This document shows positions 14,288 through 53,289 of a stretch of DNA of 64,000 bases, in pieces. A program made the translations under genes and the position numbers. Under the pieces are notes generated by a model. The model was not told where the DNA came from and made no database searches. It saw only the letters and a list, made by a program, of their open reading frames with translations. Source of the stretch: Oscillospiraceae bacterium (GTDB taxonomy: Bacteria > Bacillota > Clostridia > Oscillospirales > Oscillospiraceae). Within the stretch, counting starts at the first letter, position 1. Each line of letters opens with the position of its first letter. The DNA is taken from positions 1 through 64,000 of the forward strand of contig SVLS01000002.1 of assembly GCA_015067835.1 (NCBI GenBank), in the 5' to 3' direction.

Positions 14288-14400
14288 GGCCCCCTTGTGT
14301 AAAGGGGGCTGGCAAAAATCTGTGATTTTTGACTGGGGGATTGTCACAACCCCTCCGTCACGGTATGCACCGTGACACCTCCCCTTACACAGGGGAGGCT
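14288..14400. repeat. Family B short element (gene-less)
   Basis: GGCCCCCTTGTGTAAAGGGGGC...GGGGGATTGT/ACAACCCCTCCG...CCTTACACAGGGGAGGC. Confidence 0.9.
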
Positions 14401-17963: not shown

Positions 17964-18009
17964 ATCATGCAATAAGGGGCGGACGAACCGCCCCTTGTTG
18001 GTGTATAAA

Positions 18010-18107
18010 GCCTCCCTTGTGCAAAGGGAGGTGGCCGAGCGTTAGCGAGGACGGAGGGATTGATAATCCCCCACCGCTACGCGGAGCCCCCTTTACACAA
18101 GGGGGCC
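18010..18107. repeat. Family B short element between dnaK and dnaJ
   Basis: GCCTCCCTTGTGCAAAGGGAGGTGGCCGAGC...CCTTTACACAAGGGGGCC. Confidence 0.9.
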
Positions 18108-18125
18108 TTTAATTGAGGTGAATTT

Positions 18126-36076: not shown

Positions 36077-36488
36077 TGTCATTGCGAGGAGCATCGACAG
36101 ATGCGACGTGGCAATCTCCCGGGGAAAACCGATTCTTAACCACGTGTTATTTCGTTGTATAAATCCACCCAACGAGGATTTTTATCCATAATTAAAGAAG
36201 TTTTGCGTTCTCTTTTCCAACTTTTAATTTGCTTTTCCCGCTCTAATGCTGCTTTTACATCTGAAGTTTCTTCAAAATAGACAAGTTTTGTTACATTATA
36301 TTTTGCAGTAAAACTATTTTTGTCCAAATGATTTTTGTGCTCATATATTCGTCGCAATAAATCACTTGTTACACCGGTATACAGCACTGTACAGTGCTTA
36401 TTTGCCAGAATATATACATAGTATTTCATTTCTTTTATCCTACATAATACCGGGAGATTGCCACGTCGCTTACGCTCCTCGCAATGAC
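36077..36488 (-). mobile_element. Putative family-A long element carrying GIY-YIG gene
   Basis: Inverted family-A halves (36077-36120 and 36450-36488) flank the gene in place of the usual core. Confidence 0.7.
36136..36429 (-). CDS. GIY-YIG nuclease-superfamily protein (97 aa) inside a family-A repeat
   Basis: MKYYVYILANKHCTVLYTGVTSDLLRRIYEHK; the ORF-track extension upstream of MKYY is translated repeat sequence. Confidence 0.92.
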   Translation of the reverse strand: MKYYVYILANKHCTVLYTGVTSDLLRRIYEHKNHLDKNSFTAKYNVTKLVYFEETSDVKAALEREKQIKSWKRERKTSLIMDKNPRWVDLYNEITRG

Positions 36489-36489
36489 G

Positions 36490-36963
36490 TGGTGGGGAGA
36501 TTGCCACGTCGCTTCGCTCCTCGCAATGACATAAAATGGGAGATTTTACGATTTTGTATGTCATTCCGAGGCCCAACGGGCCGTGGGAATCTCCTGGTAA
36601 TATCTATCGATACGCACCGCAAAACAAGCATCGTACCGGGAGATTGCCACGTCGCTTCGCTCCTCGCAATGACAAAAAATAGGAGATTTTACGATTTTGT
36701 ATGTCATTCCGAGGCCCAACGGGCCGTGGGAATCTCCTGGGAACATCTGTCGATACGCATTGCAGGAACATACTGCGTACCGGGAGATTGCCACGTCGCT
36801 TCGCTCCTCGCAATGACATAAAATGGGAGATTTTACAATTTTGTATGTCATTCCGAGGCCCAACGGGCCGTGGGAATCCCCTGGTAATATCTATCGATAC
36901 GCATTGCAGGAACATACTGCGTACCGGGAGATTGCCACGTCGCTTACGCTCCTCGCAATGACA
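36490..36963. repeat. Family A array: one half-unit and three units, 143/144-bp period
   Basis: Unit starts 36559, 36702, 36846. Confidence 0.95.
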
Positions 36964-36982: not shown

Positions 36983-38944
<1,962 letters not shown>

Positions 38945-38959
38945 TTATTTGTCCCCAAA

Positions 38960-39419
38960 GGCTCCCTTGTGTAAAGGGAGCTGTCAAAAATCTTCTGATT
39001 TTTGACTGAGGGATTGTCTTACTTTAAGATCGATATACGCACAAACTCCCTGAAAATTTTTAAATATCTCATTATTTGGTATCCGAATAATGCTTAATCC
39101 GTAACCTTCCAAAAAAGCTGTACGAATGGAATCTCTTTCAATGTTTGCATCATCAAAGTGCTGAGAACCATCTAATTCAATGACAATTTTTGCTTCTGCG
39201 CAGTAAAAATCCACAATATACCTTCCAAGAACTTTCTGCCTTGAAAAACGAATCGGATAATTACGCAGAAAATCATACCATAAATGGCGTTCTTCTTTTG
39301 TCATTTTCTCACGCAGCTGCTTCGCAAAAGGGACTAATTGCTTATTGTGTTTAGACTGCATCACAATCCCTCCGTCCGGAATCAAAGATTCCGGCCACCT
39401 CCCTTTACACAAGGGAGGC
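38960..39419 (-). mobile_element. Putative family-B long element carrying DUF559 gene
   Basis: Inverted family-B halves (38960-39017 and 39363-39419) directly bracket the gene. Confidence 0.75.
38984..39361 (-). CDS. DUF559 (Vsr-like PD-(D/E)XK superfamily) endonuclease-domain protein inside a family-B repeat
   Basis: FAKQLREKMTKEERHLWYDFLRNYPIRFSRQKVLGRYIVDFYCAEAKIVIELDGSQH. Confidence 0.92.
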   Translation of the reverse strand: MQSKHNKQLVPFAKQLREKMTKEERHLWYDFLRNYPIRFSRQKVLGRYIVDFYCAEAKIVIELDGSQHFDDANIERDSIRTAFLEGYGLSIIRIPNNEIFKNFQGVCAYIDLKVRQSLSQKSEDF

Positions 39420-39426
39420 TTTTTTG

Positions 39427-40527
39427 CTATGACAATTTTCCTTGTTCGATGTGAATTGTCTTTCCCAATTCCGTAAACTTTCCGGGTTCACAGCAGGTGA
39501 TGAAAACCTGCCCGGTTTTGATTTGATTTAACACAAAATCCTGTCTGGCCGGGTCCAGCTCGGACAAAACATCATCCAGAAGCAGCACCGGCTCTTCTCC
39601 GAATTCCCGTCGATACAGCTCCCGCTGTGCCAATTTCAAGCTGATGGCCGCCGTTCGGGTCTGACCCTGAGAGCCGTAGGCCTTCAGATTGATTCCTGAC
39701 AGGCAGACCTCAAAATCATCTTTATGCGGACCGGTCAGGCACATTCCCGATTCCAGCTCCGCCCGATAATGGCTTTGCAAATGCTCCTGTAACGCCTGTG
39801 TCAGCTCCGATACCGGTGCAAGGGGGTCACGAACGGTGGAAACCGTTTGATATTGGAGAGAGAATTCCTCTGCTCCGCCGGAAAATGCATCGTGAAACTT
39901 TGCCGCTTCCTGCCCCAGGCTCTGATAAAACCGCGCCCGATAGGAAATCAGCAGCGCACCCACCTGACAAAGCCGGGTATTGTACTCCGGCAGAATCTCC
40001 AGCACCGCCGGATTTTCAAAATGGTCCTTCAAAATCCGGCTTTTTTGCTCTAAAATCCGGTTATATTCCGTCAGCGCCGCATCATAATTCGGCCTCAGTC
40101 CGCACAGCGCCATATCGCCCAGCCGTCGGCGGGCGGATGCACCGGATTTTAAGACCATTAAATCCTCCGGGCAGAATAAAACGGTTGACATAACACCGGA
40201 AATATCCGCCACAGTCTTCTTTTTCGCCCCATTGCGCCAAATTTGCCGGGGTCTTTGGCGGTCAAACAGCACCCATCGCAGGGTTTGCAGCCGTCCCTGA
40301 GAGAAAATTTCCCCCTCCAAATCCCCAAAATCCGCCCCAAAGCGAAGCATTTCGCTTTGCTTTTGCGCACGGAAGCTCTTACCGGTGCCAAGATAGGCCA
40401 CCGCCTCCAGCAAATTGGTCTTTCCCTGGGCATTTCGCCCCACAATCAAATTCACGCCGGGGTCAAAATCCAGATTCAGTTCCTCATAATTCCGGAAATT
40501 CCGGAGTTTTAAATTATGAAGCTCCAT
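39427..40527 (-). CDS. recF: DNA replication/repair protein RecF
   Basis: LKLRNFRNYEELNLDFDPGVNLIVGRNAQGKTNLLEA. Confidence 0.98.
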   Translation of the reverse strand: MELHNLKLRNFRNYEELNLDFDPGVNLIVGRNAQGKTNLLEAVAYLGTGKSFRAQKQSEMLRFGADFGDLEGEIFSQGRLQTLRWVLFDRQRPRQIWRNGAKKKTVADISGVMSTVLFCPEDLMVLKSGASARRRLGDMALCGLRPNYDAALTEYNRILEQKSRILKDHFENPAVLEILPEYNTRLCQVGALLISYRARFYQSLGQEAAKFHDAFSGGAEEFSLQYQTVSTVRDPLAPVSELTQALQEHLQSHYRAELESGMCLTGPHKDDFEVCLSGINLKAYGSQGQTRTAAISLKLAQRELYRREFGEEPVLLLDDVLSELDPARQDFVLNQIKTGQVFITCCEPGKFTELGKTIHIEQGKLS

Positions 40528-53262: not shown

Positions 53263-53289
53263 AAACCTCCCTTGTACAAAGGGAGGTTT
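53263..53289. repeat. Family B half hairpin
   Basis: AAACCTCCCTTGTACAAAGGGAGGTTT. Confidence 0.7.

Follow-up and report, generated by a model that had tools for sequence, protein, structure and literature searches.

The spacer between recF and gyrB in an Oscillospiraceae genome (1.73 Mb in 34 contigs) holds a small nuclease gene enclosed by hairpin-rich repeat halves, which raises the question of whether gene and repeats form one element and, if so, what moves it. The window analyzed here is a stretch of 64,000 nucleotides, contig 16 of that genome.

The element between recF and gyrB

The spacer, bounded by recF (39427-40527, minus strand) and gyrB (36983-38911, minus strand), is occupied by a DUF559 open reading frame. 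The features of this element and of the related gene-less copies in the window are as follows:

38957-39017, minus strand: b-half on the 3' side of the gene, with outer hairpin GCTCCCTTGTGTAAAGGGAGC, inner hairpin TCAAAAATCTTCTGATTTTTGA and core TGAGGGATTGT
38984-39361, minus strand: CDS of the predicted DUF559 nuclease, 125 aa, likely start ATG at 39361
39363-39422, minus strand: a-half on the 5' side of the gene, with outer hairpin CCTCCCTTGTGTAAAGGGAGG, inner hairpin CCGGAATC/GATTCCGG and core CGGAGGGATTGT
14288-14400, minus strand: gene-less family-B element, a-half right and b-half left
18009-18108, plus strand: gene-less family-B element in the dnaK-dnaJ spacer

The encoded protein matches PF04480 with E=6.8e-29 (100.4 bits vs a curated Pfam cut-off of 20.6) and is homologous to the solved structure 3HRL (E=3.5e-14). 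The residues invariant in DUF559 (Q42, D51, E62, D64 and H68) include the acidic/histidine site, which is kept. Judged by these features, the gene product is a DUF559 protein, a predicted nuclease of the Vsr-like PD-(D/E)XK type. A longer TTG-started frame, reaching up to 39412, is also open for this gene, and no second DUF559 copy was found in the 1.73-Mb genome.

The first-pass annotation had described the gene as bracketed by inverted halves of a repeat termed family B, and both sequences and coordinates agree with this: an inverted-repeat search found the arms 38957-38994/39385-39422 to be 84% complementary and a second pair, 38996-39017/39363-39384, to be 82% complementary. The interval 38960-39419 given there for the gene holds as the extent of the whole element (approximately 460 bp), but the CDS itself is confined to 38984-39361. 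The repeat halves reach into the functional parts of the gene, as its Shine-Dalgarno-like GGAGGG lies within the core of the a-half (GGAGGGATTGTGATG) and its last codons (..RQSLSQKSEDF*) are encoded by the b-half. The two gene-less copies at 14288-14400 and 18009-18108 do join the same halves, with only 1-2 nt separating the cores. Overall, the genome has five clear family-B elements, including two further gene-less ones on contig C5, and a degenerate pair on contig C11; the family-B pattern occurs 12 times, compared with a single occurrence of the reversed-pattern control. No Rfam family reached its gathering threshold over window positions 14000-39600. A lone family-B-like outer hairpin at 53265-53287 (ACCTCCCTTGTACAAAGGGAGG), having neither core nor partner half, is a relic or a terminator.

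Each half combines, in this order, an outer hairpin whose pyrimidine and purine arms lie 3-5 nt apart, the dinucleotide TG, an inner hairpin that varies, and a purine core ending in GGGATTGT. The a-half (5') follows the scheme GCCTCCC..GGGAGG-TG-hairpin-CGGAGGGATTGT, marked by TG..CGG, and the b-half (3') the scheme GGCTCCC..GGGAGCC-TG-hairpin-CTGAGGGATTGT, marked by TG..CTG. This difference between the halves is fixed (of the 40 distinct inner hairpins, 20 follow one scheme and 19 the other, and one deviates), the DUF559 gene is always oriented from a to b, and gene-less copies, also in other genomes, have the same polarity. Interiors of the gene-less copies in other genomes are short and mostly A/T-rich or lineage-specific. 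The inner hairpins covary: 92.5% of the 40 distinct sequences have a stem of 4 bp or more vs 12.8% after shuffling. Moreover, the core is a mirror image of the outer purine arm (in family B, CCTCCC / GGGAGG / GGAGGG), and arm and third block change jointly in 39 of 40 cases (33 CTCC/GAGG and 6 CCCC/GGGG, with 1 mixed). Mirror symmetry of the third block (at least 7/8 match) reached 0.43 in the order vs 0.05 in shuffles and 0.24 for a direct-repeat reading, and 0.36 vs 0.34 for the direct-repeat reading in the named set; it is thus clear against shuffles and only moderately distinct from a direct repeat. Some inner hairpins (e.g., TCAGCGAAGCTG and GCACGGCGTAAGCCGTG) are letter-identical across the outer families B, C, D and E (L014, L015, L026, L105 and others), as if modules of the element had been exchanged between outer-hairpin families.

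In gene-less copies, the joint GGGATTG..CAATCCC is uninterrupted (e.g., GGGATTGACAATCCC), and in the full form this joint is occupied by the DUF559 gene; as with homing endonucleases, the gene interrupts a site that exists uninterrupted elsewhere. The unit of about 460 bp is probably a full-length mobile element that has a nuclease as its only gene and, as its ends, inverted, asymmetric hairpin/triplex-type repeats resembling BoxC/PIT/TMECO; the gene-less copies would be its non-autonomous form.

Association and co-inheritance of hairpins and DUF559

Hairpins (8-bp perfect pyrimidine:purine, counted within 230 nt of the gene) were present on both sides of 46 of the 56 DUF559 loci in the order and of 15 of 26 loci in Pseudomonadota/Chloroflexota. 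Bracketing is not universal, with 37 of the 79 named GTDB loci having hairpins on both sides, and the DUF559 domain is also found within long ORFs. Counted by flank, 100/112 in the order, 107/158 in named GTDB species and 38/52 in Pseudomonadota/Chloroflexota were positive, compared with 6 of 400 neighbouring windows and none of 332 shuffled flanks; as a negative control, hairpins on both sides were seen at 0 of 30 GIY-YIG loci of the genus. Inverted-repeat scores averaged 25.9 for a gene's own flanks, against 10.3 when flanks were mismatched and 8.1 in shuffles. DUF559 genes are bracketed by such ends far above chance in several phyla.

The enrichment anticipated for family B itself was recovered, its halves surrounding DUF559 genes in at least 10 of the order's families. 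DUF559 was present in 17 of 40 relatives, nearly all copies lying between inverted hairpins of several sequence families. Among 247 genomes, family-B hairpins occurred in 56 and DUF559 in 76, with an overlap of 37 (OR 7.6, p=4e-10); the gene was found in 37/56 genomes with family B vs 39/191 without it, so an independent distribution of the two is not borne out. Where at least five family-B hairpins were present, 21 of 26 genomes carried DUF559. Inward-facing hairpin pairs, as read from the listed places, were spaced either by 75-134 nt, the gene-less class, or by 393-545 nt, where most carry a gene; a few pairs in other orientations lay outside both classes. Family-B hairpins had no detected DUF559 partner in 19 of the 56 genomes, one of them with 36 hairpins. 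These could be orphaned copies, incomplete MAGs or assembly gaps (many of the surveyed genomes are incomplete MAGs), or the work of another driver. Five such genomes (G232, G158, G163, G186 and G188) have 5-36 family-B hairpins each.

A maximum likelihood tree of the DUF559 domain was built with the repeat-encoded residues left out to avoid circularity. The outer-hairpin family required 8 changes for its 8 states (minimum 7; 28.4 with shuffled labels, lowest 24), whereby the B labels rest partly on flank sequences read directly, because the B pattern often matched one flank only. In comparison, the host family required 26 changes (28.3 when shuffled, lowest 26). With the repeat label near its minimum and the host family near random, nuclease and repeat move together and horizontally; for example, the nucleases of L028 and L150 share 92% amino acid identity in different host families. 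A nuclease clade is thus inherited together with its repeat sequence, and both pass between host families. The pairing of family B with DUF559 proposed in the first-pass annotation is therefore supported, albeit narrower than what was found: the outer hairpin has at least eight variants, of which family B is one, and each is linked to its own DUF559 clade.

A host function would make DUF559 an enzyme of Vsr-type very-short-patch repair or a restriction-type nuclease, around which ordinary terminators or regulatory/instability elements have collected by chance; this is very improbable. Such a role would agree with the Caulobacter DUF559 protein VsrA, which is functionally tied to a cytosine methyltransferase and required for the SOS response of mutants in the methyltransferase gene scmA (PMC12907096), and with the weak similarity to a methyl-directed REase and to DpdF reported by PADLOC. 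However, terminators leave the bilateral hairpins, the fixed a/b polarity and the per-clade sequence identity unexplained, nor do they account for multicopy gene-less pairs, scattered loci and a phylogeny independent of the host.

It is also unlikely, though clearly less so, that DUF559 is purely a homing endonuclease gene which invaded older repeats containing its recognition site, the repeats having been amplified independently, for instance when triplex-forming DNA is replicated or repaired. The gene's place at the joint, the absence of a clear nuclease remnant from the gene-less B copies and the presence of repeats in genomes lacking the gene all fit this scenario, and Vsr-like (EDxHD) homing endonucleases are known (PMC3943268). 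What argues against it is the almost perfect co-inheritance of repeat family and nuclease clade across host families, which suggests that the spread of the repeat depends on the nuclease.

Dispersal, landing sites and the proposed mode of movement

Near-identical gene-less copies have been dispersed into unrelated flanks. In the genome G244, two of them (L329 and L330) are 98% identical, their right flanks being only 49% alike, approximately as unrelated sequences are, and two further copies share the interior, giving four with a related interior in that genome. The same genome contains a composite element (L333, contig C141), in which a DUF559 gene ending in a b-half is immediately preceded by a complete gene-less copy.

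The comparison of recF-gyrB spacers suggested in the first-pass annotation revealed both filled and empty states with varied occupants: across the genus, the spacer holds family A with a GIY-YIG gene, DUF559 with family B, C or D, gene-less A, C or D, or nothing. The dnaK-dnaJ spacer carries gene-less B in the window, a DUF559-bearing C element in two relatives, gene-less elements in others and no element in the closest relative tested (G070). Elements sit at different places in a spacer from one species to another and so resemble independent insertions. No target-site duplications were recognized by eye in the dnaK-dnaJ, recF-gyrB and L329/L330-type comparisons, and no clean filled/empty pair was found in near-identical strains.

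At 36078-36962, the window also contains a GIY-YIG gene (36136-36576, minus strand) beside several family-A copies (GTCATTGCGAGG..TGGCAATCTC), a parallel nuclease-repeat pair with a different fold; the A + GIY-YIG unit occupies the recF-gyrB spacer of at least seven relatives. The occurrence of two such pairs within 3 kb, initially judged unlikely to be trivial, is less remarkable than claimed, because, within the genus, elements land repeatedly in the recF-gyrB and dnaK-dnaJ spacers. Family A was found on both sides in 4 of 30 cases in the GIY-YIG search of the genus, and this set served only as a negative control, since most of its genes were without family A.

Dispersal of this kind might also be ascribed to a transposase-like activity, by which DUF559 would excise or copy the whole unit at both hairpin ends, with the ends rather than the centre as the substrate, and the gene-less copies would be MITE-like deletion derivatives moved in trans, comparable to Y1 enzymes in RAYT/REPIN and IS200/IS605. 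The conserved inverted ends with their fixed polarity, the common interior of gene-less copies in new flanks, the family-by-family pairing of ends and nuclease and the strong covariation of the inner hairpins are consistent with it. We nevertheless consider it rather unlikely: the comparisons revealed neither a target-site duplication nor a defined target, the gene splits the symmetric centre in the manner of a homing endonuclease gene, and a single small PD-(D/E)XK domain is not known to perform strand transfer of its own.

For the nuclease-only element favored here, we infer movement driven by the nuclease. DUF559 would recognize its own repeat, through the hairpin/triplex structure and/or the GGGATTGT..ACAATCCC centre, and cut there, and the break would be repaired by copying from another copy of the element. 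Such repair may carry the gene into gene-less copies in a homing-like manner and spread the repeat, with the gene-less copies being served by the nuclease in trans. The location of the gene at the symmetric joint favors the homing-like step, and the dispersal of the gene-less copies requires a step acting at new sites as well. Published support comes from the in vivo role of the DUF559 protein VsrA in the SOS response of Caulobacter (PMC12907096) and from Legionella, where copies of DUF559 and of GIY-YIG are suspected, though unconfirmed experimentally, to be hotspots of recombination (PMC12308824). No report joining DUF559 with repeats was found in open papers.

Triplex-type repeats in other phyla and known systems

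BoxC, PIT and other triplex repeats have been known since the 1990s, Hoyne and Maher being named beside Holder et al. The BoxC/PIT/TMECO motifs form intrastrand triplexes in vitro, with CD/NMR evidence for TMECO oligos only, and are linked to genome instability; paired TMECOs in E. coli always consist of one type A and one type B motif (section 18), and the survey's authors found no mobility gene near triplex motifs (Holder et al., 2015, PMC4666352).

Repeats of the CCCTCTCCC..GGGAGAGGGTTGGGGTGAGGG type flank DUF559 genes in Pseudomonadota. Near-perfect inverted repeats surround the genes of Deinococcus (approximately 55 nt, within a cluster of paa genes) and Pseudanabaena (approximately 89 nt), and similar hairpins accompany those of Picosynechococcus and Neisseria. 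Related repeats are thus carried at the DUF559 genes of four groups (Pseudomonadota, Cyanobacteriota, Deinococcota and Neisseria), and they belong to BoxC/PIT/TMECO or are close to them; those of Pseudomonadota match the published motif. The TMECO consensus (at most 3 substitutions, within 300 nt) was present at 10 of 26 Pseudomonadota/Chloroflexota DUF559 loci vs 1 of 146 control windows. In one E. coli strain (L268), an exact consensus match lies directly 3' of the DUF559 gene, and the published TMECO no. 9 is located downstream of ycjD in strain DH1. The initial reading of family B thus stands as to the association, with the addition that such repeats, at least in Pseudomonadota, also fall within a known class. 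Family B of the window has a different arm sequence from the E. coli TMECO consensus, and its second loop, a hairpin of more than 6 nt, exceeds the 1-6 nt of the ITxF rule; on both grounds, it is an architectural relative rather than a TMECO.

With the E. coli ycjD gene as query, 3364 of 5426 genomes had a place that covered 80% of it or more. At the sapF-fabI locus (L268, L275), ycjD alternates with the eef efflux operon (PMC12817139). The gene was considered for a filled/empty comparison and rejected: the inspected strains without ycjD carry this unrelated operon at the spot, hence no clean empty site.

Tentatively, DUF559 elements may constitute a transposase-free mobile class spanning several phyla, whose nuclease recognizes triplex/hairpin ends; BoxC/PIT/TMECO of E. 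coli, cyanobacteria and Neisseria would be its gene-less remains, and GIY-YIG with family A a parallel invention. If true, the 30-year-old puzzle of BoxC and "triplex" repeats would be answered as the ends and empty copies of a DUF559-driven mobile element, and a common nuclease family, almost unstudied in the open literature (15 of 5.4 million open papers name DUF559 or PF04480), would gain a role. Since ycjD of E. coli K-12 adjoins its own triplex motifs, both questions are testable in laboratory strains.

Compared with the published BoxC/PIT/TMECO, the repeats described here share the pyrimidine arm, the complementary purine arm and a second, mirror-like purine block in the order Y - R - mirror R, as well as the intergenic, multicopy occurrence, often in inverted pairs, in which types A and B resemble the a- and b-halves. 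They differ in bracketing a nuclease gene and, in clostridia, in having a covarying hairpin of 8-32 nt as the second loop instead of 3 nt. MITEs are likewise short, gene-less, intergenic and dispersed inverted-repeat units, but here neither a transposase partner nor a target-site duplication was seen, and the ends are long hairpins with a fixed a/b asymmetry. With REPIN/RAYT, the elements have in common paired palindromic non-autonomous units and a single-domain nuclease gene bracketed by, and co-inherited with, the same repeat. RAYTs, however, are Y1 HUH transposases with GTAG-type REPs, whereas the gene here is a PD-(D/E)XK DUF559, with no RAYT involved, and the ends are not GTAG-tagged. Finally, as in Vsr-like (EDxHD) and free-standing homing endonuclease genes, a small nuclease gene, itself related to Vsr, lies within a symmetric site; but known homing endonuclease genes occupy introns, inteins or single genes, whereas DUF559 sits in an intergenic repeat that is present in many copies and itself makes up the ends of the element.
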